The notes beneath the pieces are model-generated. The model was not told the origin of the DNA. It made no database searches and was given only the letters and a program-made list of their open reading frames with translations. Position numbers and translations under genes: made by a program. Shown piece after piece: positions 7,319 to 35,530 of a DNA stretch of 35,546 nt. Every line of letters begins with the position of its first letter. Position 1 is the first letter of the stretch. Origin of the DNA: Candidatus Saccharimonadota bacterium (GTDB lineage: Bacteria > Patescibacteriota > Saccharimonadia > Saccharimonadales > Saccharimonadaceae); NCBI GenBank assembly GCA_017431745.1, contig JAFRKK010000007.1, positions 1 through 35,546 of the forward strand, given 5' to 3'.

Positions 7319-7377
7319 GTGAAAGGCCACAGAAGAAGCGTATCGCTTGGGAAAGATAATTAACAAGAGAGGTATAC

Positions 7378-9114
7378 ATGAAAAGCATGAAGAAGTGCAA
7401 AAGCACTAAACAAAATATCAACCATAAGCGACGTTCCAGCGCCGGTATGTTTTACACTTCTTCTGCCGGCGCTGTGACCTCGCTTATTTTGTGCTTGGTG
7501 GCGAGCCTGGTCTTTAGCTCTCTCATGGCTCATAATACTTCCGCCGTAGGCACAGTTAGCCTCACCGTTAGCAGCGATACAATAGGTGTCAATATCGCAC
7601 CCACTATGCCAAACGGCACCTTTGCTAAGTCAGACAATGTCAATATCAGTGCCTCTACCGATAATAGCACTGGCTACACCCTAATGCTAGCAGCAAATAG
7701 TAGTACAGACTATAACAAACTAAAAAACGGCAATGAATACCTCACCTCAGTCACTTCACCTACCACCGAGGAAGCCTTCAAATCTATCAGTGGCACTGCT
7801 TATAACAATATGTGGGGTTATCTACCTAGTAAGTATTGCACTAGTGATACAAACAGCGTTGTGTGTTCTACCAACACAGATTTTCTTCCTGCACCTAATA
7901 CATCCGGCGATATCCTAGATAAAACTTCATCAGCCAATACCACAGCTAATGACTACACCTTAGCCATAGGTGCTAGAGTAGATAACACCACTAAGATGGG
8001 AAGCTATACTAATACCTATAATGTCATATTAGTGGCTAATGAAGTACCATATTCCATTACCTACTATGACAGCATTATTAGTAACATGCCAGTAGATGTA
8101 GTATCAGCCTCATCATCTCAAACAGTCAATATCTCAAACAATACCCCTACTAGAGATGGCTATACCTTCCTAGGTTGGTGTACAATACAACCTACTACTA
8201 CAAATGGTGTAGATGCCTGTACTGGCGGCACTACCTACTCTCCAGGACAAGCTTGGACTCTAGGTGCTAGTGATAATAATCTAAGTCTTTATGCTATGTG
8301 GGGTCAAGAAACCGGACTATGTAGTAGTAAAGACAACTGTATGCAATTCGTAGATAGATATAGACTAAGTACCCTAATGCCTACCGTAGGCAGTACTACT
8401 ACCTTATATGATATGCGTGATGGACAAGCCTATACAGTAGCTCTTCTAGCCGATGGTAAATACTGGATGACTAAGAATTTGAATCTACCAGGTGGTACTA
8501 CCTTACACGATTACGATACTAATATGCCAGCAGGCTATACTCTCCCTACTGCTAATAACTTCCAAAGCGGCAATAGACTTCCTGCTTCATCTACTACAGG
8601 GTTTGATGATAAAGCAAAAGCATATGTCTATAATAGTAATAGCACTACTTGTGGGAATAACAGCCCCTGTTATTCATATTACTCTTGGACAGCAGCTACG
8701 ATTGGTTCTGGTCTAAATATCGCCAGTGAAAACACTGATGCCCCCTATAGCATCTGCCCTAAGGGCTGGAGATTACCCACATCAGGAAATAGCCAGAACA
8801 ACGGTTGGAAAAGGGGCGACTTCTATCAACTCGCTACTAATTATGGCGTGAACCTAAGCAGCCAACAATATGAGTATTCAGCCACCTTCTATAACAATGC
8901 TGGTCCTGGCACTACCCCCAGCTTCCTGCTCGCCGGCGGCTACGCTTCCAGCGCGTTCTACAATGGCGGGACGCGCGGCTACTATTGGTCGTCTACTTCG
9001 TACGACAATAATAGTCGCGTTCGTCGCATGTATTTCTATTCAGGCGGCGTCGAATCAGCCGATAACACCAAACGCGACGACGGCGGTAGCGTCCGTTGTG
9101 TGTTCGCCGGCTAG
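7378..9114 (+). CDS. Secreted FISUMP-domain surface protein 2 with InlB-type repeat
   Basis: 578 residues. The start MKSMKKC is chosen from the GAGAGG ribosome site at 7368-7373. The basic start is followed by RRSSAGMFYTSSAGAVTSLI and a hydrophobic segment (residues about 33-53) as signal peptide/anchor. A beta-rich Ser/Thr/Asn region (about 55-230) leads to an InlB/Listeria-Bacteroides-type repeat (NTPTRDGYTFLGWCT to SLYAMWG, about 240-310). Then the FISUMP domain: MRDGQAYTVALLADGKYWM, CPKGWRLPT and GYYWSSTSYD, ending GGSVRCVFAG. Body codons are AT-rich (ACT, AGT, GGT), while the last about 65 codons shift to GC-rich NNC codons. It is a probable surface adhesin; ligand unknown. Confidence 0.82.
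   Translation: MKSMKKCKSTKQNINHKRRSSAGMFYTSSAGAVTSLILCLVASLVFSSLMAHNTSAVGTVSLTVSSDTIGVNIAPTMPNGTFAKSDNVNISASTDNSTGYTLMLAANSSTDYNKLKNGNEYLTSVTSPTTEEAFKSISGTAYNNMWGYLPSKYCTSDTNSVVCSTNTDFLPAPNTSGDILDKTSSANTTANDYTLAIGARVDNTTKMGSYTNTYNVILVANEVPYSITYYDSIISNMPVDVVSASSSQTVNISNNTPTRDGYTFLGWCTIQPTTTNGVDACTGGTTYSPGQAWTLGASDNNLSLYAMWGQETGLCSSKDNCMQFVDRYRLSTLMPTVGSTTTLYDMRDGQAYTVALLADGKYWMTKNLNLPGGTTLHDYDTNMPAGYTLPTANNFQSGNRLPASSTTGFDDKAKAYVYNSNSTTCGNNSPCYSYYSWTAATIGSGLNIASENTDAPYSICPKGWRLPTSGNSQNNGWKRGDFYQLATNYGVNLSSQQYEYSATFYNNAGPGTTPSFLLAGGYASSAFYNGGTRGYYWSSTSYDNNSRVRRMYFYSGGVESADNTKRDDGGSVRCVFAG
7424..7491. repeat. 68-nt block identical to 28217-28284, nested hairpin inside coding sequence
   Basis: The block is identical at every position to the one in FISUMP gene 3. 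It folds as ATAAGCGA (7424-7431) with TCGCTTAT (7480-7487) around CAGCGCCGG (7437-7445) with CCGGCGCTG (7466-7474). It encodes the RSSAGMFYTSSAGAVTSLIL segment before and into the membrane helix. The rest of the two genes has diverged strongly. Confidence 0.85.
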
Positions 9115-17661: not shown

Positions 17662-19125
17662 ATGTTTGTAGATATTGCCAAAGTTCATCTAAAAGCCGGT
17701 AAAGGCGGCAACGGCGCCGTTTCTTTTCGCCATGAAATTTATATCCCGAAGGGTGGTCCCGATGGTGGTGACGGCGGTCGTGGTGGCAGCATTATTTTTC
17801 ACGCCGATAAGGACACTAATACTTTAATCGACTTTCGTTTTACCCCGATTCTCGAAGCCGAAAATGGCAAAAACGGCTCAGGTCAGCGTTCCGCTGGCCG
17901 TTCCGGCAAGGATCTAATCGTCGACGTCCCCATCGGCACTTGTGTTTATCGGTTGGAACACGAGGAAACACCTCGTTCGAGGAGCATATTTTCCGACGTG
18001 GAAAATACGGAGCGACCGAGCCCCGTAACGACGGGCGCGAGGGAGCGTTCCGAGAACGATGGTGTTTCTCGTGTTCTGATGGCTGATTTAACAAAGGATG
18101 GGGACGAAGCGGTCATCGCCAAGGGCGGCGACGGCGGCTTTGGTAACGCTCACTTCAAATCCAGCACTCGCCAAGCCCCAGTCATCGCTGAGGTCGGCGA
18201 ACCCGGCGAGGAATTTGATGCCGAGTTAGAGCTAAAGTCCATGGCCGACGTTGGCCTAGTTGGTCTCCCTAACGCCGGCAAATCTACTTTCCTTTCAGTC
18301 GTCAGTAACGCCAAGCCCGAAATCGCTGATTACCCTTTCACTACCATCACTCCCAATCTTGGCGTCGCTACTATTGACGATACAGATTTGTTAATCGCCG
18401 ATATTCCAGGATTAATCGAGGGCGCCTCTGAGGGCAAGGGTCTAGGCCATGACTTTCTCCGCCACGTCGACCGCACCGCCGTTTTGCTACATCTGATTGA
18501 CGTTTACAATGACGATGCCGGCGAGGCGTATCAAACTATCCGTAATGAGCTGAACAAATATTCTGATCTCAAAAACCGCCCCGAAATCGTCGCTCTTACC
18601 AAATGCGAAGGCGTCGATGAAGATATCATCAAAATGCAAATGGCTTCCATCCTCGCCAAAAACCCCGACGCGAAAATCTATACTATCAGCAGCTCCGCCC
18701 ACCAAGGCCTCACTGAGCTATTGCGGGAACTGGTTGCGATTGTTAAGGATAATCAAGGATATGCTTCTCGGGGGCTTTCGGAGGTTACGACCGAGAATGA
18801 GGGCGCGAGCCCCGTGACGACGGGAGCGAGCGACCCGTCCCCCGAGAAGTCGTATCCTGATTATCCTACCATCTCTCTTAGTGACAAAGCCTTGGATGAC
18901 ACTTGGAAAGTCGAAAAATTAGACGACGGTTCTTTTCTGGTCACCGGCGCAAAAATCGAAAAATTCGCCCGCCGCACCGACATGGATAATTATGCTAGTG
19001 TCAACCGCCTCCGTGACATCATGAAAAAACTCGGCATCCGCGCCGAATTAACTTCAAAAGGCGCCGAGCCCGATTCCATTATCGAAATCTCCGGCAAACG
19101 TTTCCCCCTCGTTGAAGACTGGTAA
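17662..19125 (+). CDS. obgE: Obg/CgtA GTPase carrying two palindromic inserts
   Basis: 487 residues, longer than the usual about 430 because of two inserts. The N-terminal glycine-rich Obg fold (MFVDIAKVHLKAGKGGNGAV, GPDGGDGGRGGS) is followed by the G domain (GLPNAGKST near residue 201, ADYPFTTITPNLG, DIPGLIEGA, TKCEG) and a C-terminal OCT domain (about 405-487). Insert 1 (residues about 99-139) lies in the Obg fold before LMADLTKDGDEAVIAKGG. Insert 2 (about 362-402) lies between G and OCT domains. Both keep the frame and are Ser/Thr/Glu/Pro-rich. Obg couples GTP level to 50S assembly. Confidence 0.95.
   Translation: MFVDIAKVHLKAGKGGNGAVSFRHEIYIPKGGPDGGDGGRGGSIIFHADKDTNTLIDFRFTPILEAENGKNGSGQRSAGRSGKDLIVDVPIGTCVYRLEHEETPRSRSIFSDVENTERPSPVTTGARERSENDGVSRVLMADLTKDGDEAVIAKGGDGGFGNAHFKSSTRQAPVIAEVGEPGEEFDAELELKSMADVGLVGLPNAGKSTFLSVVSNAKPEIADYPFTTITPNLGVATIDDTDLLIADIPGLIEGASEGKGLGHDFLRHVDRTAVLLHLIDVYNDDAGEAYQTIRNELNKYSDLKNRPEIVALTKCEGVDEDIIKMQMASILAKNPDAKIYTISSSAHQGLTELLRELVAIVKDNQGYASRGLSEVTTENEGASPVTTGASDPSPEKSYPDYPTISLSDKALDDTWKVEKLDDGSFLVTGAKIEKFARRTDMDNYASVNRLRDIMKKLGIRAELTSKGAEPDSIIEISGKRFPLVEDW
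17956..18076. repeat. In-frame palindromic element in obgE (insert 1)
   Basis: Outer arms GAACACGAGgAAACACC (from 17956) and GGTGTTTCTCGTGTTC (to 18076) are inverted repeats. Inner hairpins are TATTTTCC/GGAAAATA (17977-17999 area) and the core CCCGTAACGACGGG at 18022-18035 with flanking CGAGC/GCGAG. Core orientation is plus. It is read as about 40 residues. Confidence 0.85.
18747..18866. repeat. In-frame palindromic element in obgE (insert 2)
   Basis: Outer arms GGATAATCAAGGATA (18747-) and TATCCTGATTATCC (to 18866) continue inward as CTTCTCGGGGG and CCCCCGAGAAG. Hairpin 1 is TTTCGGAGGTTACGACCGAG, hairpin 2 holds the core CCCGTGACGACGGG at 18811-18824. The core region is nearly identical to the second mnmA element (33790-33927). 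Confidence 0.9.
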
Positions 19126-23562: not shown

Positions 23563-25143
23563 ATGGAATCGATTAAAGATATGTTTGCCAAAATAAAGCA
23601 ACCGATTGGCCAGTCCAAAGCTGCCAGTTCTGCTACGCCTGCCAAAAAACCTGCCGAAGACCAATCTGCGCTTGCCGAAATGGCTTTGAAGGCTATCCAC
23701 GATGGAGTCGTGATAACCGACCGGGCTGGAACAGTGCGTTTTATTAACCCTGCCGCCGTTACTATGACCGAAGTCGGCTCGCCAGACCAAGCTATTGGCC
23801 TAGATTATGGTTTAATCATTAAACTAGAGTCTAAAGAAGGCCGCGAGCTGCCCGAAGCGGAGAACCCTTTAATTCAAGCCATGAAGTCTAACCAGCCATT
23901 AGAACGCGCCGAAGTGATACTAATTCCTACCAAATCCGCCAAACGTATTCCGATTGCGCTTTCTATGCTCCCAGCCGAAGGGCTTTCTGGCAATCGCATT
24001 ATCACCTTCCGCAATATCACGGCCGAGCTTGAAGAAGAAGGCGAACAAACTGAATTTATCTCTACCGCCTCGCACGAAATGCGCACACCTGTTGCTACCA
24101 TTGATGGCTATTTGACTTTAGCTTTGAATCCACAAACTGCCACCATCGATGAGCGTGCTCGGGGTTACCTCACTGCCGCCGAGAAGGCCTCCAAGCATCT
24201 TGGCAAATTATTCCAAGATCTACTTGATGTCACCAAGCTAGACGATGGCAAAATTCGTCCAAATCTCGAACCAGTCGAAATGACCGAGCTAGTCAGGTCT
24301 ATCGCAAATGACTATATTACTCGCGCTCAGGCCGCTAAACTGACTTTTACCTTTGGTTCCACCGAACCAGTCGGTTTTGATCCCGACCGTCGCCTCGACC
24401 AAGTGGTTTACGGCTTTGTCGATGTCAACTTTATGCGCGAAATTATGGACAACCTAATTGAAAACGCTCTTAAATATACACCGGCTGGCGGCTCCGTTTA
24501 TGTCAATGTGCGTGGCGATGGCGACCGTGTCTTGATTAATGTCACCGATACCGGCATCGGGATTTCAGCTGACGATCTAACGCATATTTTCCAAAAATTC
24601 TACCGCGCCGACAATTCCGATACTCGCGAAATTGGTGGTACTGGTCTAGGATTATACCTGGTTAAACAACGCGTTGAATCGATGGATGGGCGCGTTTGGG
24701 CCGAATCTGGTTTTGGTGAAGGCTCGACCTTCTTTGTGTCTTTGCCGCGTATTTCCCAGGAAGAATATGAAAAACGTATGATAGCGGTTAATAATCAAAA
24801 ACTTCAGCCTAACCCGGTAGTTCAGCCTGTAGCGCCAACACCAGCGCAGCCCGTAGCTCCAGCACCAGTTCAGTCTGTTGTGCCAGCACCAGTTCAGCCT
24901 ACCCCCCAACCCCAACCTCAACCTGTAACACCAACGCAACCTACGATGCAACCTGTGGCACCAATTAGACCTACTGGCGAGTCGGCTCAAAGTCCTCCTG
25001 AGGGAGTAAGACTTGGCCTAGCGGCCCGGAGCGCTCCCGAAGGAGGACCTTTGAGCGGCTCGCCACAGACACAAACAGCGCCCGTGGCGCCCGCACCTAG
25101 CACACCAACAATTAATAATAATTTAAACGGAGAAGCAAAATGA
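23563..25143 (+). CDS. Cytoplasmic PAS sensor histidine kinase
   Basis: 526 residues, no membrane helix. A PAS domain (about 43-155, AIHDGVVITDRAGTVRFINP) is followed by HisKA with the phospho-accepting His in STASHEMRTPVATIDGYL (about 166-183), then HATPase_c: N box MDNLIENALKYTPAGG, G1 VTDTGIGIS, F box FQKFYRAD, G2 GGTGLGLYLVKQRVESMDG. The tail (about 410-526) is Pro/Ala/Gln-rich and contains a palindrome at 24976-25064. Its stop overlaps the response regulator start (ATGA), so the pair is co-translated. Confidence 0.92.
   Translation: MESIKDMFAKIKQPIGQSKAASSATPAKKPAEDQSALAEMALKAIHDGVVITDRAGTVRFINPAAVTMTEVGSPDQAIGLDYGLIIKLESKEGRELPEAENPLIQAMKSNQPLERAEVILIPTKSAKRIPIALSMLPAEGLSGNRIITFRNITAELEEEGEQTEFISTASHEMRTPVATIDGYLTLALNPQTATIDERARGYLTAAEKASKHLGKLFQDLLDVTKLDDGKIRPNLEPVEMTELVRSIANDYITRAQAAKLTFTFGSTEPVGFDPDRRLDQVVYGFVDVNFMREIMDNLIENALKYTPAGGSVYVNVRGDGDRVLINVTDTGIGISADDLTHIFQKFYRADNSDTREIGGTGLGLYLVKQRVESMDGRVWAESGFGEGSTFFVSLPRISQEEYEKRMIAVNNQKLQPNPVVQPVAPTPAQPVAPAPVQSVVPAPVQPTPQPQPQPVTPTQPTMQPVAPIRPTGESAQSPPEGVRLGLAARSAPEGGPLSGSPQTQTAPVAPAPSTPTINNNLNGEAK
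24976..25064. repeat. Palindromic element in the histidine kinase tail
   Basis: GGCGAGTCGGCTCAAAGTCC from 24976 pairs with GGACCTTTGAGCGGCTCGCC ending at 25064. AGGAGG/CCTCCT and GGGAG/CTCCC continue the stem toward a loop with GGCCTAGCGGCC. It lacks the CCCGTnnmGACGGG core and is thus a second type. Confidence 0.75.
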
Positions 25144-25745
25144 GCAAAATAATGGTAGTCGAAGACGATGCAGCGCTTCGCGAAATCTACAGTATCCGCA
25201 TTACCGCCGAAGGCTACGATGTAGTCTCTGCTGGTGACGGTGAGGAGGCCCTCGCGGTAGCCGTCCGTGAAAAACCCGATTTAATACTATCTGACGTTAT
25301 GATGCCAAAAATCTCTGGTTTTGACATGCTAGATATTCTGCGTTCTACCCCCGAAACTGCCAATATTAAAGTCATCATGATGACCGCTCTTTCTGCCGAC
25401 GACCAACGTGAACGCGGCGAACGCCTCGGCGCCGACCGCTATCTTGTTAAATCTCAAGTTGGCATTGAGGATGTCGTTAATGCAATTCACGAAGTTTTAG
25501 GTGACAAACCAGCTGCCGCACCTGCTCCCGCAACAGAAGCACCTGCTCCTGCACCAGAAACTCCCACCCCTGCGCCAGAAGCACCAGCACCAGCTCCGGA
25601 AGCACCCACTGAAACATCTGCTTCGGAAACTCCAGTTCCCGCCCCAGGAGCCCCAGCTGAAGCTCCTGCTCCAATCCCCGAAACTCCAGCCGAACCGCAG
25701 CCAACTCCACAGGTTGAAAATGAACCAGCAGCTCCGGCTCAATAA
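25140..25745 (+). CDS. Response regulator: receiver domain with Pro/Ala tail
   Basis: 201 residues. Receiver domain at 1-122: acidic pair in VVEDDAALREIY, phospho-accepting Asp in PDLILSDVMMPKISG, TALS and Lys in RYLVKSQVG. No DNA-binding or enzymatic output domain follows. The last about 75 residues are APAPE-type repeats, probably a disordered linker or spacer. Output therefore likely goes through protein contacts. Translation is coupled to the histidine kinase, and its 3' end overlaps the next gene by 26 bases. Confidence 0.9.
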   Translation: MSKIMVVEDDAALREIYSIRITAEGYDVVSAGDGEEALAVAVREKPDLILSDVMMPKISGFDMLDILRSTPETANIKVIMMTALSADDQRERGERLGADRYLVKSQVGIEDVVNAIHEVLGDKPAAAPAPATEAPAPAPETPTPAPEAPAPAPEAPTETSASETPVPAPGAPAEAPAPIPETPAEPQPTPQVENEPAAPAQ

Positions 25746-26496
25746 ATTTCTTGCCGAACGCCTGGGCGTATCCCGCCGTGAGGCCGACGAGCTAATCGCT
25801 ACCGGCAAAGTCACTATCGACGGCCAACCCGCTGTAATAGGCAATAAAATTGACAGTAAGTCAAAGATATGTTATAACAATAAAACTATCCCTTTCAACA
25901 TAGAGTTTATCTACCTCGCTTTCAATAAGCCAGTGGGCTATGTGTGTTCCCGTCACGCTCAAGGTTCAGCCCCCACTATTTATGAAATACTACCAAAAAA
26001 ATACCACAAATTAAAAACCGTCGGCCGCCTAGACAAGGATTCCTCTGGCCTTATTTTGCTGACCAACGATGGCGATTTTGCTTACCAAATGACTCACCCA
26101 AAATTCCATAAAGAAAAAGTTTACGAAGTTGAACTCGACAAACCCCTCGAACCTCTCCACCAGCAAATGATTTCCGACTACGGCGTGATGCTCGACGACG
26201 GCCCCAGTAAGTTCACTGTGATAAAGAGCGAGCTTGCAAAACCGTCTTCCTCGGGACGCTCCTCGCGCCCGTCTTCACGGGGCTCGTCGCTGAGTCCTCG
26301 TAGCGACTGCGGATTCCCCTCGAAAGAGGTTTCGCAAGCTCGCTACACCGTAATTCTTACCGAAGGTCGCAATCGCCAAATCCGCCGCACCTTCGCAGCG
26401 TTAGGCTATAAAGTGACCAAACTACACCGCACCAATTTCGGAAAATATGAACTAAATGGATTAGAATCTGGGAAGACAACAGAGTTTAAAATATGA
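25720..26496 (+). CDS. RsuA/RluB-family pseudouridine synthase with palindromic insert
   Basis: 258 residues from the ATG at 25720 (MNQQLRLNKFLAERLGVSRR). The open frame extends upstream to 25501 only as a shadow of the response regulator tail. An S4 RNA-binding domain (about 4-50) is followed by the catalytic domain with VGRLDKDSSGLILLTNDGDF (catalytic Asp in GRLD), THPKFHKEKVYEV and ILTEGRNRQIRR. Residues about 170-208 (ELAKPSSSGRSSRP to KEVSQARY) are an in-frame palindromic insert between two conserved strands. It modifies uridine in 23S or 16S rRNA. Its stop codon lies inside another palindrome (26485-26653). Confidence 0.9.
   Translation: MNQQLRLNKFLAERLGVSRREADELIATGKVTIDGQPAVIGNKIDSKSKICYNNKTIPFNIEFIYLAFNKPVGYVCSRHAQGSAPTIYEILPKKYHKLKTVGRLDKDSSGLILLTNDGDFAYQMTHPKFHKEKVYEVELDKPLEPLHQQMISDYGVMLDDGPSKFTVIKSELAKPSSSGRSSRPSSRGSSLSPRSDCGFPSKEVSQARYTVILTEGRNRQIRRTFAALGYKVTKLHRTNFGKYELNGLESGKTTEFKI
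26228..26343. repeat. In-frame palindromic element in the RluB-like gene
   Basis: GCGAGCTTGCAAAACC at 26228 pairs with GGTTTCGCAAGCTCGC (to 26343). The inner pair AGTCGC/GCGACT-like hairpin and the core CCCGTCTTCACGGG at 26268-26281 (minus-orientation core CCCGTGAAGACGGG) are visible. It is read as about 38 residues rich in Ser and Arg. Confidence 0.85.
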
Positions 26497-27960: not shown

Positions 27961-28103
27961 GTCTTACGTTATTTATATGAACCGCAATTTTTAATAAATC
28001 GAATATTAAATCGACAAAAATCGGCACCGTGCGTGTACGATTGCTGTCGATTTGATATGCGGTTGTATAAATGGCGTAAGACACCAGCACGGTGTCGATT
28101 TTT
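27961..28103 (+). promoter_or_regulatory. Structured 5' leader RNA of FISUMP gene 3
   Basis: 27961-27986 pairs with 28058-28082 (GTCTTACG/CGTAAGAC, ATTTATA/TATAAAT, AACCGCA/TGCGGTT, with G-U pairs between). AAATCGACA 28008-28016 pairs with 28045-28053. The apical loop 28016-28032 is complementary over 17 positions (one G-U) to 28087-28103, which ends in TTTTT. The layout equals the leader at 7175-7318 with no shared sequence. Confidence 0.7.
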
Positions 28104-28140
28104 ATATTCGCCACCTCTAACAAAACTAAGAGAGGTACAC

Positions 28141-29742
28141 ATGAAAAGCATGAAGAAGTGCATAGTCACTAAAGAAATAATAAGCAAAAGCATTAAGCTG
28201 GATAAACGACGAAGCAATAAGCGACGTTCCAGCGCCGGTATGTTTTACACTTCTTCTGCCGGCGCTGTGACCTCGCTTATTTTGATCACTACGCTTTCTT
28301 TTCTCACTTCTGCATTTCTGAATCTTACTGGGACTAGCCAGGCCCACGCCACCGCCTCCACCATCAACATCAGCGTAGTAGATAATGTATCACTGAGTAT
28401 TCTACCAACTAGTACTTCTGGTACCTTTGCTACTTCAGACACTAGTACTAATAACATTAGTGTTAGTACTACTAATGGTACTGGCTACACACTAGGCATT
28501 AAAGCAAGTGCAGAAGGCAGTAACGCCCTAAATGGAGCAAATAGTACTAGCATCCCATCCCACACAGTATCAGCTGGTATTAGTGAAGCTACCTATAGTA
28601 CAGATTCTACTTACAACAACACTTGGGGCTATAGACCAAGTAAACTAAACTCCACAGCAAACTCTAACTATCTCCCAGGCCCTACTAGTGCAAGTACAGC
28701 TATCACTCTAGATAAGACTACTTCAGCTAACCCTACTTCTTCTAACAACTATAACCTAGCTATTGGCGTCAGAGTTGATGGTAATACTGCTGCAGGAGCT
28801 TACTCTAATACTTTTATCATAACTGTAGTAGCTAACCCATCAGTCTATTCCATCACTTACAACAAGAACACTACAGACACAGTATCTAACATGCCAACTA
28901 ACGTAGTAAACCAAGAAACATCTAGTGAAACAGTTACCCTAGCAAATAACACCCCCACCAGAACCGGTTATAATCTCCAAGACTGGTGTACAGTACAAGT
29001 AGCAGACGGTGCAGCCTGTACTGGTACATCCTACTCACCTGGAAGTACCTGGACCATTGATCAGACAGCTTCAACCAACTCCTTAACCCTTTATGCTAGG
29101 TGGAAATTAGACAAGGTATACATTCAAGACTTCACTAAAGCCAACTGCCAAGCCCAAGCATCTTCTGCTGACTTTAAAGTATACGATAAACGTGATGAAA
29201 ATGATTATACCGTGCATTATATCAATGGTGAATGTTGGATGACTCAGAACCTCCGCTTCACCGGCGCTTCACTCAAAGTAGGCGAGACCAACGTTACTTC
29301 AAATAGAACAATTTCTCCTTATGGCGCCCTTACTTCCGGTGATAGCTATACTGAAGCTCGTAAGCAATATAATAACAACACTAACTATGGTGCCTACTAT
29401 AACTTCTGTGCTGCTTCAGCTAAGACAGTATGTGATTACAATACTCAAGCCGATGCCACCCAAGACATCTGCCCAGCTGGTTGGAAACTCCCAACCCAAG
29501 CCCAAATTCAGACTATTGCTGACAACAAAGGTGCTAATTGGAACGCAGTCGTCGCCGGGTACTACAGCGGTGGGTCGCTAAGCGGCGCTGGCACGTACGG
29601 TTACTGGTGGGCTTCTACTGCAAATAGCGCTACGGCTCAGTATAACCTATACTACAGCAACCTCTACGGCTTCGACTTCTGGAACGTCAGCAGCTACGGC
29701 AAGGCCCGCGGGTTTTCCGTCCGTTGCGTTAGGGCTTCTTAG
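28141..29742 (+). CDS. Secreted FISUMP-domain surface protein 3 with InlB-type repeat
   Basis: 533 residues from the ATG at 28141 (MKSMKKC), chosen from the GAGAGG site and the identical start of FISUMP protein 2. A longer frame start at 28033 lies in the structured leader. The signal segment RRSSAGMFYTSSAGAVTSLI plus a helix precedes a Ser/Thr/Asn beta region, an InlB-type repeat (NTPTRTGYNLQDWCT to LTLYARWK) and a FISUMP domain (YDKRDENDYTVHYINGECWM, CPAGWKLPTQAQIQ, GYWWASTANS, GFSVRCVRAS). The last about 65 codons turn GC-rich with many NNC codons, unlike the ACT/AGT-rich body. Probable variable surface adhesin. Confidence 0.82.
   Translation: MKSMKKCIVTKEIISKSIKLDKRRSNKRRSSAGMFYTSSAGAVTSLILITTLSFLTSAFLNLTGTSQAHATASTINISVVDNVSLSILPTSTSGTFATSDTSTNNISVSTTNGTGYTLGIKASAEGSNALNGANSTSIPSHTVSAGISEATYSTDSTYNNTWGYRPSKLNSTANSNYLPGPTSASTAITLDKTTSANPTSSNNYNLAIGVRVDGNTAAGAYSNTFIITVVANPSVYSITYNKNTTDTVSNMPTNVVNQETSSETVTLANNTPTRTGYNLQDWCTVQVADGAACTGTSYSPGSTWTIDQTASTNSLTLYARWKLDKVYIQDFTKANCQAQASSADFKVYDKRDENDYTVHYINGECWMTQNLRFTGASLKVGETNVTSNRTISPYGALTSGDSYTEARKQYNNNTNYGAYYNFCAASAKTVCDYNTQADATQDICPAGWKLPTQAQIQTIADNKGANWNAVVAGYYSGGSLSGAGTYGYWWASTANSATAQYNLYYSNLYGFDFWNVSSYGKARGFSVRCVRAS
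28217..28284. repeat. 68-nt block identical to 7424-7491, nested hairpin
   Basis: Second copy of the shared block in the signal region, with the same two nested stems (ATAAGCGA/TCGCTTAT and CAGCGCCGG/CCGGCGCTG). Confidence 0.85.
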
Positions 29743-30840: not shown

Positions 30841-32797
30841 TCCGACGTACTCCTGCCGAGGACGATTCTTCTTTCTTGATCTTGAATTTGCCTAGCACGC
30901 CAGTATGCTCCACATGTGGCCCACCACACACCTCGCGTGATACCGGGTTATCAAAATCGCCAATCGTGTAAACCTTCAAAACCTCCGGGTATTTATCCCA
31001 GAATTCACCGTGAGCCTTCAACGTATCCCGCGCATATTCTTTATCATACTCATCAAATACCACAGGGAGATCCGCCTCAATCCATTCATTCACCTGCTTT
31101 TCAACTGCAGCTTTTTCCTCGTCGGTTAATTTATGGTCGCAGTTAAAGTCAAAACGCACTCTCTCCGAAGTGATATTCGAACCTTTCTGGCAAGTGCCAG
31201 GATCAACAATCTTCTGTAAAGCCGCAAGCAACAAATGGCACGAAGTGTGATATTTCACAGTTTGTTCGCCGTGATCTTCAAGACCACCCTTGAACATTCC
31301 TTTCGAAGCTGTCTGTGAACGCTCGCGTTGCTCCTTCAAAGCCGCCTCAAATTCCTTTACGTAATCCTTCGACAATTCAATTCCTTGCCTATAACACTCC
31401 TCGACAGATAATTCCATCGGAAAACCGTAAGTATCCTGGAGCTTAAAGAGATCGTGCCCTGATAAGATGGCATTTTCGTCTCGACTCGGCGCATTTCGGA
31501 GCGCGGCAGCGCGAGAGTTAGCGCGCTCGCCCCGTGGCGACGGGCGCGAGCGACGCGGCGCCGAGTGAGATGAAAATGCCATCTTCCGGAGCTCTTTAAG
31601 CCCACGATTCAAAGTTTTCCGAAAAGCACTTTCTTCGCGTAGCATTACATCAAGCGCATCTTCTCGATGTGTCAAAATCGAATCTGGCAAGTCCTTGTAA
31701 TTATCCGCCACAATCGGCACAATCTCGGCTAAGAAATTCGACGAAATACCAAGGTCCAAAGCCCGCAAGATAGCACGGCGAAGTAATCGTCTCATCGCAT
31801 AACCTTGTGCCTTATTAGATGGCGCCAAGCCTTGTGCAGCAAGCAAATACGCGCCCCGAATATGGTCCGCGATTACCCGCATTTCATCGGTGTTATTATC
31901 GTAAGACTTCCCTGAAATCTCCTCCAAATGGTCAATAATCGGCTTCATCAGCGAAATCTTAAACACATCAAACGACCCGATAGATGCCGCCGCAATTCGC
32001 TCCAAACCTCCGCCAAAGTCTACGTTCTTTTTTTCAAGCGGCTCAAACGAACCATCCTCAAGCCGTCTATATTGCATAAAGACCGAATTTCCGATTTCCA
32101 TAAAGCGCGCTCCATCCGAAGCTGGATGCGATTTGCCATATTTCTTGACATCTTGTTTATCTTCACCAAAGTCATAAAACACCTCGGAATCCGGTCCGCA
32201 CGGGTCGCCAATTGGCGTAGATTCACAGCCACCCCCGCGTGACCACCAGTTTTCGTGGTCGCCATAGAAGAAAATCCTCTCACCTGGCTTGATTCCACGC
32301 TTGTCGCCCTCGGCCGCCGTACCAATTTCCGCAACCTTTGCCTCGATTCCAGCCTCCTTAAATACTTTTTTCCAAATTTCTGCCGCTTCCTCATCCTTCG
32401 GAATACCATATTTTTCATTTCCTATAAAACAAGTCACATAAATTTTCTCTGGGTCTAACCCCACAATTTCCGTCAAAAACTTAAAGAAATTCCGAATCTG
32501 CTCTTCCTTAAAATAATCACCTAGCGACCAGTTGCCCAGCATCTCAAACACCGTGGTATGGCGTGGGTCACCCACATCTTCAATGTCTTGCATCCGCATC
32601 GAAGGTTGCGAATCGCAAAGCCTCGTCCCATCCGGATGATCCTTGCCTAGTAGATATGGCAAAAGTGGCTGCATCCCCGAACCGGTAAACAGTGTGGTCG
32701 GATCACCTTCTAAAACTAGCGGTGCCGGCTGAATCACCTTGTGGCCATTTTTAACTTGAAACTCTAAAAATTTTTTTCTAATCTCGTTTGTATCCAT
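30821..32797 (-). CDS. alaS: Alanyl-tRNA synthetase, short form, with palindromic insert
   Basis: 658 residues against about 875 for the full enzyme; the C-Ala domain is absent. Catalytic domain MDTNEIRKKFLEFQVKNGHK, FTGSGMQPLLPYL and GDPCGPDSEVFYDFGED, the tRNA-recognition helices (YAMRRLLRRAI), and the editing domain with HTSCH (HxxxH) and CGGPHVEHTG are all present. Residues about 399-453 contain a palindromic insert (RRSRPSPRGERANSRAAALR) just before LSGHDLFKLQDTYGFP. TATAAT lies 6 bases upstream of the ATG, so the mRNA appears leaderless. Short AlaRS forms are known in reduced genomes. Confidence 0.95.
   Translation of the reverse strand: MDTNEIRKKFLEFQVKNGHKVIQPAPLVLEGDPTTLFTGSGMQPLLPYLLGKDHPDGTRLCDSQPSMRMQDIEDVGDPRHTTVFEMLGNWSLGDYFKEEQIRNFFKFLTEIVGLDPEKIYVTCFIGNEKYGIPKDEEAAEIWKKVFKEAGIEAKVAEIGTAAEGDKRGIKPGERIFFYGDHENWWSRGGGCESTPIGDPCGPDSEVFYDFGEDKQDVKKYGKSHPASDGARFMEIGNSVFMQYRRLEDGSFEPLEKKNVDFGGGLERIAAASIGSFDVFKISLMKPIIDHLEEISGKSYDNNTDEMRVIADHIRGAYLLAAQGLAPSNKAQGYAMRRLLRRAILRALDLGISSNFLAEIVPIVADNYKDLPDSILTHREDALDVMLREESAFRKTLNRGLKELRKMAFSSHSAPRRSRPSPRGERANSRAAALRNAPSRDENAILSGHDLFKLQDTYGFPMELSVEECYRQGIELSKDYVKEFEAALKEQRERSQTASKGMFKGGLEDHGEQTVKYHTSCHLLLAALQKIVDPGTCQKGSNITSERVRFDFNCDHKLTDEEKAAVEKQVNEWIEADLPVVFDEYDKEYARDTLKAHGEFWDKYPEVLKVYTIGDFDNPVSREVCGGPHVEHTGVLGKFKIKKEESSSAGVRRIKAILE
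31441..31601. repeat. In-frame palindromic element in alaS
   Basis: Arms GCTTAAAGAG (31441-31450) with CTCTTTAAGC (31592-31601), AAGATGGCATTTTC (31464-) with GAAAATGCCATCTT (31571-31584), and CTCGGCGC with GCGCCGAG. The core CCCGTGGCGACGGG is at 31531-31544. The inner about 65 bp differ at a single position from the cysteine desulfurase element, while the arms are unrelated. Confidence 0.92.
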
Positions 32798-32803
32798 TTG
32801 TTA

Positions 32804-32844
32804 ATTATACCATACTTGACGACCTCGTGCCAACGTGCTATGAT
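32804..32844. promoter_or_regulatory. Divergent promoters of alaS and the small basic protein
   Basis: Minus strand: TGG-TATAAT (32804-32809) 6 bases before alaS. Plus strand: TTGACG (32816-32821), 17-bp spacer, TGC-TATGAT (32839-32844). Confidence 0.6.
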
Positions 32845-32871
32845 AATCATAAGTATAATAAAGGAATTTTT

Positions 32872-33078
32872 ATGGCTCAAGCAAAAAAGAAAACTGCAAC
32901 TAAAACTGCGAAAAAAACCACTGCAAAATCCGGTGCCCGCAAAAAAACAGCAACTCGCACTACCAAAGCTAAAGGCATCAGTAATCGCGAGCGTGCACAC
33001 ATCTATATTGTCACTATCATGAGTATGATCGTCGCCATGTTGCTTTGTGCCGATGTTGCAATGATGGTTGTTCGCTAA
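32872..33078 (+). CDS. Small Lys/Ala/Thr-rich single-helix membrane protein
   Basis: 68 residues from the ATG at 32872 (AAAGGAA site upstream); a longer frame start at 32788 lies in the promoter. MAQAKKKTATKTAKKTTAKS is a histone-H1-like basic tail, followed by a helix (IYIVTIMSMIVAMLLCADVA) near the C-terminus. The basic tail should stay cytoplasmic and may touch DNA or ribosomes; that is inference. Its stop is directly followed by the stop of mnmA on the other strand with no bases between. Confidence 0.65.
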   Translation: MAQAKKKTATKTAKKTTAKSGARKKTATRTTKAKGISNRERAHIYIVTIMSMIVAMLLCADVAMMVVR

Positions 33079-34302
33079 TTACGCAATAATTCCACCACCT
33101 AGGCAAATTTCACCATCATATAACACAGCGCTCTGTCCCGAAGCAGGGCGCTTTACTTCATGCTCAAACTTTAATGTATTTCCATCAAGAATTGCCGGAA
33201 TCAATGGTGCCCGGTGACGCAAACGCACTAGCACATTCAAAGCTCTTCCGCTTCGTTCGGGGCCGCGTCCGGCCGGCCCGTCGCCACGGGCGGCCGGCGC
33301 TAATTCTCGCGCTGTCGCGCTCCGAAATGCCCCGAACCGAAGCAGAAGATCTTTTAACTCTAGTTCCTTAGTCCACAGTTCCTTATTATTTAAATTCTTT
33401 GATATATACACAATGTTTTTGGCGATATCCTTTTTCACGACATAATACGGCACTTCGGCAGCAATGTATAAACCGTGTCTTTGCCCAATCGTATAAAACA
33501 CCGCACCTTCGTGGTAGCCTAACACTTTTTCGGTCTCAATTTCTCGTATTTCACCCGGCTCCGCCTCCACATATTTTTTCAAAAAATCTTTCATCCCCAC
33601 TTCGCCCACAAAACACACCCCCATCGATTCTTTCTTATAGGCATTATGTAATCCATGCTTTTCCGCCAACTTTTTCACCTCCGGCTTCATCATTCCCCCA
33701 ATCGGGAACAAGGTGTGCCGTAATGCTTCCTCCGAAATCCGGTATAAAAAATACGTCTGATCTTTATTCTCATCAACCGCCCGCATTAGGCAAGCTGAGG
33801 ACGATTCAGAACATACTTCTCGGGGGCTTTCGGAGGTTACGACCGAGAATGAGGGCGCTTCGCCCGTAACGACGGGCCGAAGCGACCCGTCCCCCGAGAA
33901 GTCATGTTCGAATCGTCCTATTCTTGCATAGTGCCCGGTAGCAATAAAGTCAGCCCCTTCCTCCATCGCTTTCTCGTAGAATAATTTAAATTTGATCTCT
34001 TGATTACACATGATGTCCGGATTCGGCGTATTACCTTTGCGAAACTCCTCAAGCATATATTCAACCACTTTTTCTCGATACGAATCTTCAAAATCCCACA
34101 CCTTAAAATCAATCCCCAGTTTCACTGCCACCCGCTTTGCATCGGCGAGGTCTTCCGCCCAAGGACACTTCATTCCTGGCAAATCCTCAGACCAGTTTTT
34201 CATGTACACCCCCACCACTTTGTATCCTTGCTCCTGCAAAATTAGCGCCGATACCGACGAATCCACCCCTCCGCTCATCCCTACATACACCGTTTTAGCC
34301 AT
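33079..34302 (-). CDS. mnmA: tRNA-specific 2-thiouridylase with two palindromic inserts
   Basis: 407 residues against about 360 usual. PP-loop GMSGGVDSSVSALIL at the N-terminus, VYMKNW, CPWAEDLADAKRVA, PNPDIMCNQEIKF (first catalytic Cys) and ESMGVCFVGEVGMKDFL (second Cys), YTIGQRHGLYIA. It makes s2U34 in Lys/Glu/Gln tRNAs using sulfur from the cysteine desulfurase encoded just upstream, which it overlaps by 8 bases. Insert 1 (residues about 126-171) follows HYARIGRFE and precedes DENKDQTYFL. Insert 2 (about 316-355) interrupts the C-terminal beta-barrel domain. Confidence 0.95.
   Translation of the reverse strand: MAKTVYVGMSGGVDSSVSALILQEQGYKVVGVYMKNWSEDLPGMKCPWAEDLADAKRVAVKLGIDFKVWDFEDSYREKVVEYMLEEFRKGNTPNPDIMCNQEIKFKLFYEKAMEEGADFIATGHYARIGRFEHDFSGDGSLRPVVTGEAPSFSVVTSESPREVCSESSSACLMRAVDENKDQTYFLYRISEEALRHTLFPIGGMMKPEVKKLAEKHGLHNAYKKESMGVCFVGEVGMKDFLKKYVEAEPGEIREIETEKVLGYHEGAVFYTIGQRHGLYIAAEVPYYVVKKDIAKNIVYISKNLNNKELWTKELELKDLLLRFGAFRSATARELAPAARGDGPAGRGPERSGRALNVLVRLRHRAPLIPAILDGNTLKFEHEVKRPASGQSAVLYDGEICLGGGIIA
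33238..33356. repeat. In-frame palindromic element in mnmA (C-terminal insert)
   Basis: AAAGCTCTTCCGCTTCG from 33239 pairs with CGAAGCAGAAGATCTTT, then TTCGGGG with CCCCGAA. The core CCCGTCGCCACGGG at 33277-33290 is in the opposite orientation to the alaS and desulfurase copies. Its hairpin stem is CCGGCCG/CGGCCGG instead of GCTCG/CGAGC, a compensatory replacement of both strands. Confidence 0.9.
33790..33927. repeat. In-frame palindromic element in mnmA (N-terminal insert)
   Basis: GCAAG...AGGACGATTC (33790-33807) pairs with GAATCGTCCT...CTTGC (33910-33927), then ACTTCTCGGGGG with CCCCCGAGAAGT. Core CCCGTAACGACGGG at 33863-33876. It is near-identical inside to obgE insert 2, but it is translated from the opposite strand. 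Confidence 0.9.
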
Positions 34303-35530
34303 TTATTCGCGCCCTTTCCTTAGTCACAACCTCATTAATAATCTTTGCGGCTTCACGAATTTTTGCCTCATCATTGGTTTCACCAAACGTAATTCGCAAA
34401 GACCCAGCAATCGCTTCGTCTGTCAGCCCAATCGCCTTCAAAACATGCGACTTTTCACCTTTTGAGGCCGCACAGGCTGCGCCAGTCGCCACATAAACAC
34501 CTTTTTCTTCCAACGCAAAAATCAGCCTCTCCGCATCAAGTCCCGGAAAACTCACCACCACAAAATTATCCAAAGCATGTTTTTTGTTAATCAGTTCGTA
34601 ATCTTTTAACTCGTCCAACAATATCTTTCGCCAGGCCGCATATTTTTTGCGATTACCATTCGTATGTTCTTTGGCTAGAGAAAGAGCTTTAGCAAAACCA
34701 ATCACGCCCGGCACGTTTTCTGTACCAGACCTTAGCCCGCGTTCCTGCCCTCCGCCACAAGTAAGCGGTAAAAGCTCGGCATCATGCGACACATATAAAG
34801 CTCCTACTCCCTTCGGTCCATATACTTTCGCGGCGTTCAAAGTCAACAAATCGACCCCCAGCCGCGCCACATTAATATCTAATAGATTCATAGCCTGCGA
34901 CGCATCCGAATGTAATAATAATTGCGTCTTAACTCCCCGCTTCATTCGGTCCAGTTTTACCTCCCTCAAAATTCTGGCAATTTCCGCAAGCGGCTGAATC
35001 GTCCCCAGCTCATTATTCGCAAGGCTAACCGAAACCAACTGCACCTCATCTGTAATTTTATTCTTCAAATCCTCAAGATTAATCACTCCATTCGCCAGCA
35101 CCTTAATCGCTTCACCCCCATACTGCTCCGCCACCCGCCGCACCGAATCATGCTCCGTCTCCAGATAAAGAACAGAACATATGCTTTGGCTCGGGGTATT
35201 TCGGAGCGCGGCAGCGCGAGAATTAGCGCGCTCGCCCCGTGGCGACGGGCGCGAGCGACGCGACCCCGAGCGAAGCATATGTTCTGTGTCTATAGCTGTA
35301 AACGCCAAATTATTCGCTTCGGTCGCCCCAGCAGTAATCACAAGGTCCGATTGCTTAGCTCCTATTGTGTGCGCAATCTCCCCCTTCGCCGCTTCATACT
35401 CGGCCGCAACTTGCTTCGCTGGCAAATACGCCGCTGACGGATTAAAGAACTGGACATCAAAATACGGCTTCATGGCCTTCAAAACTCGCGCATCAACCGG
35501 CGTCGCCGCCGCATGGTCCAGATATATCAT
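34295..35530 (-). CDS. iscS: Cysteine desulfurase (NifS/IscS-like) with palindromic insert
   Basis: 411 residues. MIYLDHAAATPVDARVL is the class V aminotransferase N-terminus. LETEHDSVRR holds the PLP-stacking His, LLHSDASQAM the PLP-binding Asp/Gln, NAAKVYGPKGVGALYV the Lys Schiff base, and VATGAACAASKGEKSHVL the catalytic Cys loop. Residues about 79-122 (RRSRPSPRGERANSRAAALR) are a palindromic insert just before the EHDSV motif. It supplies sulfur to MnmA, whose gene overlaps. TATAAT lies 7 bases before the ATG. IscS, SufS and NifS assignments cannot be separated here. Confidence 0.92.
   Translation of the reverse strand: MIYLDHAAATPVDARVLKAMKPYFDVQFFNPSAAYLPAKQVAAEYEAAKGEIAHTIGAKQSDLVITAGATEANNLAFTAIDTEHMLRSGSRRSRPSPRGERANSRAAALRNTPSQSICSVLYLETEHDSVRRVAEQYGGEAIKVLANGVINLEDLKNKITDEVQLVSVSLANNELGTIQPLAEIARILREVKLDRMKRGVKTQLLLHSDASQAMNLLDINVARLGVDLLTLNAAKVYGPKGVGALYVSHDAELLPLTCGGGQERGLRSGTENVPGVIGFAKALSLAKEHTNGNRKKYAAWRKILLDELKDYELINKKHALDNFVVVSFPGLDAERLIFALEEKGVYVATGAACAASKGEKSHVLKAIGLTDEAIAGSLRITFGETNDEAKIREAAKIINEVVTKERARING
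35165..35294. repeat. In-frame palindromic element in the cysteine desulfurase gene
   Basis: ACAGAACATATGCTT (35173-) pairs with AAGCATATGTTCTGT, then GCTCGGGGT with ACCCCGAGC. The core CCCGTGGCGACGGG is at 35236-35249. The inner sequence matches the alaS element at all but one position. Confidence 0.92.

Follow-up and report, generated by a model that had tools for sequence, protein, structure and literature searches.

Palindromic inserts in mnmA and neighbouring genes

The window, which is the whole 35,546-nt stretch of DNA analysed, constitutes one entire contig of a 744-kb, 13-contig genome of a gut-dwelling Candidatus Saccharimonadota bacterium. A palindromic element interrupts the 3' part of mnmA, and seven copies of elements of this kind are present in the window: two each in obgE and mnmA, and one each in alaS, the cysteine desulfurase gene and a pseudouridine synthase gene (Table 1). 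The element is 118-121 bp in length and is repeated at many loci, with 43 copies in this genome. Read 5' to 3' on its own strand, a copy comprises a 5' arm, a small hairpin, a linker, a large hairpin and a 3' arm that pairs with the 5' arm. The small hairpin, by which several classes of element are distinguished, has a GGA/GA internal loop, and the linker that follows it ends in AG; the large hairpin has an invariant tip and two bulged bases. The G+C-rich core, with its two hairpins, is found in nearly every copy analysed and is closed by a stem of ∼27 bp, along which one-base bulges, inner and outer, recur at positions that differ by class.

Table 1. Palindromic elements in the window, their host genes and the parts of the mnmA insert
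Feature	Position	Strand	Remarks
mnmA, tRNA 2-thiouridine(34) synthase (host gene)	33079..34302	-	407 aa; both inserts predicted as low-confidence loops
Whole hairpin element in 3' part of mnmA (feature studied)	33236..33356	-	27-nt arms plus 67-nt core
5' arm of mnmA insert, TAAAAGATCTTCTGCTTCGGTTCGGGG	33330..33356	-	codes LKDLLLRF
3' arm of mnmA insert, CCCCGAACGAAGCGGAAGAGCTTTGAA	33236..33262	-	complement of 5' arm
Two-hairpin core of mnmA insert	33264..33326	-	covariance model R1, 90.0 bits; CCGGCCG/CGGCCGG stem, invariant CCCGT-GGCG-ACGGG tip
Second mnmA element, class B	33800..33917	+	antisense to mnmA, in frame
Class A element, alaS	31465..31585	+	antisense, in frame; stem GCTCGC/GCGAGC
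Class A element, cysteine desulfurase gene	35170..35290	+	antisense, in frame; stem GCTCGC/GCGAGC
Class C element, obgE	17956..18076	+	sense, in frame
Class B element, second obgE insert	18748..18865	+	sense, in frame
Class D element, RsuA/RluB-type pseudouridine synthase gene	26227..26345	-	antisense, in frame

The LKDLLLRF codons of the 5' arm in mnmA are host codons, being conserved in MnmA orthologues that lack the insert, and the 3' arm was not found in such orthologues. A first-pass annotation of this DNA had proposed that both sides of the core stem are exchanged in the mnmA copy relative to those in alaS and the desulfurase gene. These sequences are indeed present: the minus strand at 33263-33329 reads ...TTCGGAGCGCGACAGCGCGAGAATTAGCGC-CGGCCG-CCCGTGGCGACGGG-C-CGGCCGG-A-CGC, where the copies in alaS (31531) and the cysteine desulfurase gene (35236) have ...TAGCGC-GCTCGC-CCCGTGGCGACGGG-C-GCGAGC-GACGC. 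The loop and neighbouring sequence were described as retained, which holds for the hairpin tip and for the neighbouring hairpin, but the actual loop is a GGCG tetraloop with CCCGT/ACGGG as its closing stem, and the ATTTCGGAGCGCG reported there is the 5' half of the second hairpin. The extent of 33238-33356 was nearly right, the hairpin extending ∼27 nt into each flank, from 33236 to 33356. The mnmA copy has one further change, with GCGCGACAGCGC in place of GCGCGGCAGCGC. The exact 14-mer occurs three times in the window, and 10 matches were found with up to two mismatches allowed, against 0.28 expected. The CCGGCCG stem, one of the most frequent among more than 20 types of stem, occurs outside mnmA in the same genome (C1:180262 and C4:23786); the exchange of CCGGCCG for GCTCGC is a difference between subfamilies rather than an event private to mnmA.

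Two other kinds of repeat were observed in the window. Positions 7365-7491 and 28128-28284 are alike at the start (90% over 50 nt) and have in common an identical stretch of 68 nt with an inverted repeat (ATAAGCGACGTTCCAGCGCCGG...). This repeat, which differs from the hairpin family, sits at the 5' ends of the long ORFs 7378-9114 and 28033-29742. Additionally, Pro/Ala-rich low-complexity tandem repeats with 24-nt and 21-nt periods occupy 24823-25690, at the ends of two adjacent genes.

Covariation within the core

The paired change in mnmA had been taken earlier to mean that structure, not sequence, is selected or templated, with a covariation analysis of the genomic copies suggested as the check. 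When this was conducted with 60 distinct copies, the core structure passed: standard pairs occupy 97.3% of cells, against 78.3% after shuffling, and 234 cells are changed on both sides, against 86.6 in shuffles, although such cells are not independent events since the copies share ancestry. The covariation score of 0.446 (0.122 when shuffled) was reached by none of 500 shuffles, with both helices covarying, and fell to 0.015-0.079 when the pairing partner was shifted by one to three columns. RNAalifold, given only the alignment, returned the same core structure. A G.A/A.G tandem, which also preserves structure, replaces two Watson-Crick pairs in 10 or 11 sequences. The covariation score therefore supports the earlier statement, and extends it from the mnmA copy to the whole family.

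Selection and templating are only partly separated by these data. In the variable core stem (columns 31-36) there are 155 two-sided cells and only one that is one-sided, and such a scarcity of intermediates is as expected if the hairpin were extruded at the replication fork and one arm recopied from the other by neutral DNA template switching, with neither function nor selection involved. This mechanism is known (PMC8794818) and has been proposed for coding palindromes (PMC6649704).

The arms are specific to the locus and change in pairs

For 244 copies, alignment of the host portions of the two arms belonging to one copy gave a mean score of 9.9, compared with 1.3 for arms taken from different copies, and 96% of copies lay above the 95th percentile of swapped arms. 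Pairing between arms was 0.78-0.96 at 7-26 nt from the core and dropped to ∼0.55 at 28 nt and beyond, with swapped arms at ∼0.5. By these measures the outer arms are locus-specific and not common to different loci.

At orthologous filled sites in two related species, in a comparison limited to 5' arms at least 50% alike, 62 paired two-sided changes were counted versus 28 one-sided changes; obgE and mnmA provide examples of arms that have changed together. The 5' arm in the mnmA genes of three species consists of a conserved LKDxxLR stretch, the codons of which vary by species, and the 3' arm varies to match. Such tracking of host codons by the 3' arm would be accounted for by template switching. 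However, template switching alone leaves unexplained both the sharp end of the arms at ∼27 nt and the spread of the element to new loci.

In trmD of two species, as in mnmA, one arm is made up of conserved host codons, which the other repeats in inverted form; the net insertion in trmD is 93 nt, or approximately the core plus one arm. More generally, the median net insertion is the core plus 38 nt. Since net sizes fall between those for one novel arm (∼27 nt) and two (∼54 nt), copying of an inverted flank is clear at some sites only. At other sites both arms seem new or the native loop gives no guide, insertion sites being variable protein loops. On this sequence comparison, inverted copying of one flank is indicated for part of the copies only.

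The strand that folds

A one-base mutation in a pair yields G.T or A.C mismatches equally if the two strands are alike, and a fold tolerates G.T better. Counted on the element strand in fixed arm windows, G.T:A.C mismatches were 64:17 in antisense copies, 29:3 in intergenic copies and 38:23 in sense copies. Bootstrapping over copies gave G.T/A.C ratios of 3.7 (2.1-7.8), 8.8 (3.9-57) and 1.6 (0.9-2.9), respectively, and a swapped-arm control gave 1.1:1. Isolated mismatches in the outer arm half (14-25 nt from the core) were distributed 37:5 in antisense and 11:1 in intergenic copies, with no G.T excess among sense copies (19:17). The sense copies look as if host transcription disfavours a stable hairpin in the message as well. 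The fixed-window count took the place of a count on arms aligned to variable ends, in which G.T and A.C were about equal (142:137) as a result of dilution by chance alignment past 28 nt.

The G.T excess in antisense copies indicates that the relevant fold is most likely that of the element's own strand, whichever the direction of the host gene, although the sense copies alone do not reveal this. Whatever the context, at least 90% of copies have an element strand of greater stability than the complementary one, which is owed in part to the shared core sequence. G.T is the milder mismatch in DNA and in RNA, and the mismatch comparison consequently does not separate the two.

These counts bear on two alternatives. 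Selection on host mRNA structure, in which the hairpin serves to regulate or stabilise the transcript of its host gene, would be expected to produce strong compensatory changes in helices and co-evolving arms, and the hairpins do sit in transcribed genes. However, copies occur in both orientations (105 sense and 76 antisense to the host gene) and between genes, and their presence at a given site varies among related species. Moreover, such selection would require A.C to exceed G.T on the element strand of antisense copies, where the observed ratio runs the opposite way; it is therefore decidedly improbable that host mRNA structure is what is maintained. Simple correction by template switching, for its part, should make no distinction between G.T and A.C, contrary to the predominance of G.T on the element strand of antisense and intergenic copies. 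As a complete account neutral template switching seems rather unlikely, although it may contribute to making or repairing the hairpins.

Distribution of the family

Copy counts rest on pattern and covariance-model searches. In the genome of origin, 37 copies were found with the tip pattern and 36 with the core covariance model, 43 when the two sets are combined, and the reversed control pattern of the hairpin tip had no matches there. Between 0 and 37 copies per genome were found in the same genus, and related Candidatus Saccharibacteria contain hundreds of copies, mostly in frame within genes. The matches listed from named genomes are all from Candidatus Saccharibacteria, mostly of the ruminant gut. 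Tip-pattern matches, some of them due to chance, were present in 68 of 199 genomes of the same family. With the covariance model and strict filters, five of 287 genomes from the phylum gave matches, three of these belonging to the genus, one lying elsewhere in the family and one, a weak match, in another family. Positions 31400-35500 had no match in Rfam 15 at gathering or permissive thresholds, even at E 5, and the element had none in phage and plasmid collections. No account of these elements was found in the literature searched, with subscription papers mostly outside the reach of the search.

Reading frame and accommodation by host proteins

Domain matches to MnmA, AlaRS, ObgE and the cysteine desulfurase are interrupted by the inserts, which add 30-40 residues foreign to these families, a point of consequence for annotation. 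An AlphaFold model of MnmA (26 sequences from these loci) has pLDDT values of ∼35-60 over both inserts and ∼90 around them, as expected of loops that would leave the MnmA fold undisturbed. The host presumably tolerates copies by virtue of their position in surface loops and their translatability. Each of the six frames is represented, two at lower frequency, and insertions in sense and antisense orientation are both common, so that no single peptide is selected.

Of 161 intragenic copies flanked on either side by long open frames, 157 remain open through the element, and at most four do not; one of the latter, L050 in mnmA, merely reflects a short 3' end. When filled sites were compared with empty relatives, 43 of 46 length differences were multiples of three. 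Translation of the inserted genes is predicted from the open frame. A strong hairpin with a bulged stem closing the ends of the insertion might suggest that the element is removed from the message, by splicing or by RNase III excision and religation, or is skipped by the ribosome as are the mitochondrial byps. In-frame retention would be unnecessary in that case, and so the stop-free frames and the size differences largely refute removal or bypassing, which we consider extremely improbable.

Mobility

That the element moves is indicated by several observations. The leuS gene of this genome carries a copy at a site that is empty in a relative with flanks 88-90% identical, identical 44-nt core segments are present at different loci, and the same protein loops, for example in the desulfurase and MnmA, host different classes and orientations across species. 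In the desulfurase copies L069-L075 and the mnmA copies L039-L063, one surface loop holds differing classes in different species, pointing to hot spots of insertion or to copies having repeatedly replaced one another. In leuS (L023, L129) the empty site already holds a natural inverted repeat, GATAGAGTTT...AAACTCTATC, and the codons flanking the alaS insert likewise form one; natural inverted repeats may be preferred targets.

At ∼120 bp, multicopy and palindromic, the element resembles MITEs or REPs of the classical sort, which have fixed terminal repeats and depend on a DDE or Y1 transposase for movement, and the TAG or GAG that precedes hairpin 2 recalls the tag that REPs often have beside the hairpin. 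Against this, the termini are locus-specific and unconserved, and those filled/empty pairs that were inspected showed no direct duplication of the target. Moreover, the Y1 transposase (PF01797) had no match in the genome of origin and is absent from nearly all genomes of the genus, a single match in the genus sample falling below threshold. Such an origin is decidedly improbable. A reverse transcriptase was also considered as the mobilising enzyme and rejected; it is present in 26 of 40 genomes of the genus and absent from the copy-rich genome G026, which has 12 copies, with no association evident. The genome of origin has two reverse transcriptase (RVT_1) genes (G000:C1:103364-104068 and G000:C6:34106-34648), possibly belonging to diversity-generating retroelements. 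Integron attC sites, which also recombine as one folded strand, were rejected by inference, the arms being devoid of conserved boxes.

Proposed explanation

The inserts probably represent a family of mobile, protein-coding palindromic elements that fold on their own strand and occur in one Saccharibacteria genus and parts of one family. The element's own strand would fold, as single-stranded DNA or RNA, during insertion or replication, and at insertion a fold-back step would copy one host flank to give the inverted arm. What then maintains complementarity could be selection on the fold, hairpin template switching in replication, or the two combined. More tentatively, and with limited credence on our part, these might be mobile elements of a new class, which on insertion duplicate ∼20 nt of the adjacent flank in inverted orientation, thereby acquiring a custom stem of nearly fixed length, and of which a single strand must keep folding. 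If true, this would be a mechanism of insertion with inverted rather than direct target duplication.

The covarying core, the codon-following arms and the abundance of sites that are filled in some related species and empty in others are features that enable new tests. They provide a natural system in which to ask whether paired changes in hairpins come about by selection on the fold or by template switching in replication, and whether the arrival of an element can entail inverted copying of its target.

Comparison with known systems

Hairpins formed by template switching (PMC8794818) are alike in that one event makes an inverted copy of the flank and compensatory changes follow, but these are single loci without a transposable core. 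The coding palindromes of nematomorph mitochondria (PMC6649704) similarly place inverted repeats with complementary arms in functional protein genes, and template switching has been proposed for them; their arms are near-perfect, with no common core or mobile family, whereas the Saccharibacteria arms contain bulges and G.T mismatches. The mobile bypassing elements (byps) of Magnusiomyces mitochondria (mentioned in PMC6649704) are hairpins that interrupt protein genes at many places but are not translated, whereas the Saccharibacteria elements keep the frame. The REP/BIME sequences associated with RAYT transposases (PMC3733652) are likewise short multicopy hairpins; the Saccharibacteria elements differ in having no Y1 transposase in the genome of origin, in their long locus-specific arms and in being mostly intragenic.

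The nearest known kind is the protein-coding palindromes of Rickettsia and Wolbachia, as an analogy that does not imply homology. The Rickettsia palindromic elements (RPEs; Ogata et al. 2000, 2002) are palindromes of ∼105-150 bp that fall into several families and lie in frame within housekeeping genes, and are probably selfish and tolerated in the translated proteins (PMC2229807, PMC10969869). The Saccharibacteria elements resemble these and the Wolbachia palindromes in size, palindromy, the existence of families and in-frame insertion in housekeeping genes such as mnmA, alaS and obgE. However, the phyla differ, and RPEs end in 12-bp repeats of their own and encode a conserved peptide, whereas the elements described here have locus-specific outer arms and use six frames. 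Conserved terminal inverted repeats of the RPE type were not found, as the scores for own and swapped arms (9.9 versus 1.3) indicate. RPEs are reported to lose repeat identity over time (PMC6649704), whereas the arms of the Saccharibacteria elements stay complementary through paired change. In-frame palindromic inserts in essential genes, best known from Rickettsiales, here have a counterpart in an episymbiont lineage that belongs to the candidate phyla radiation and has very small genomes.
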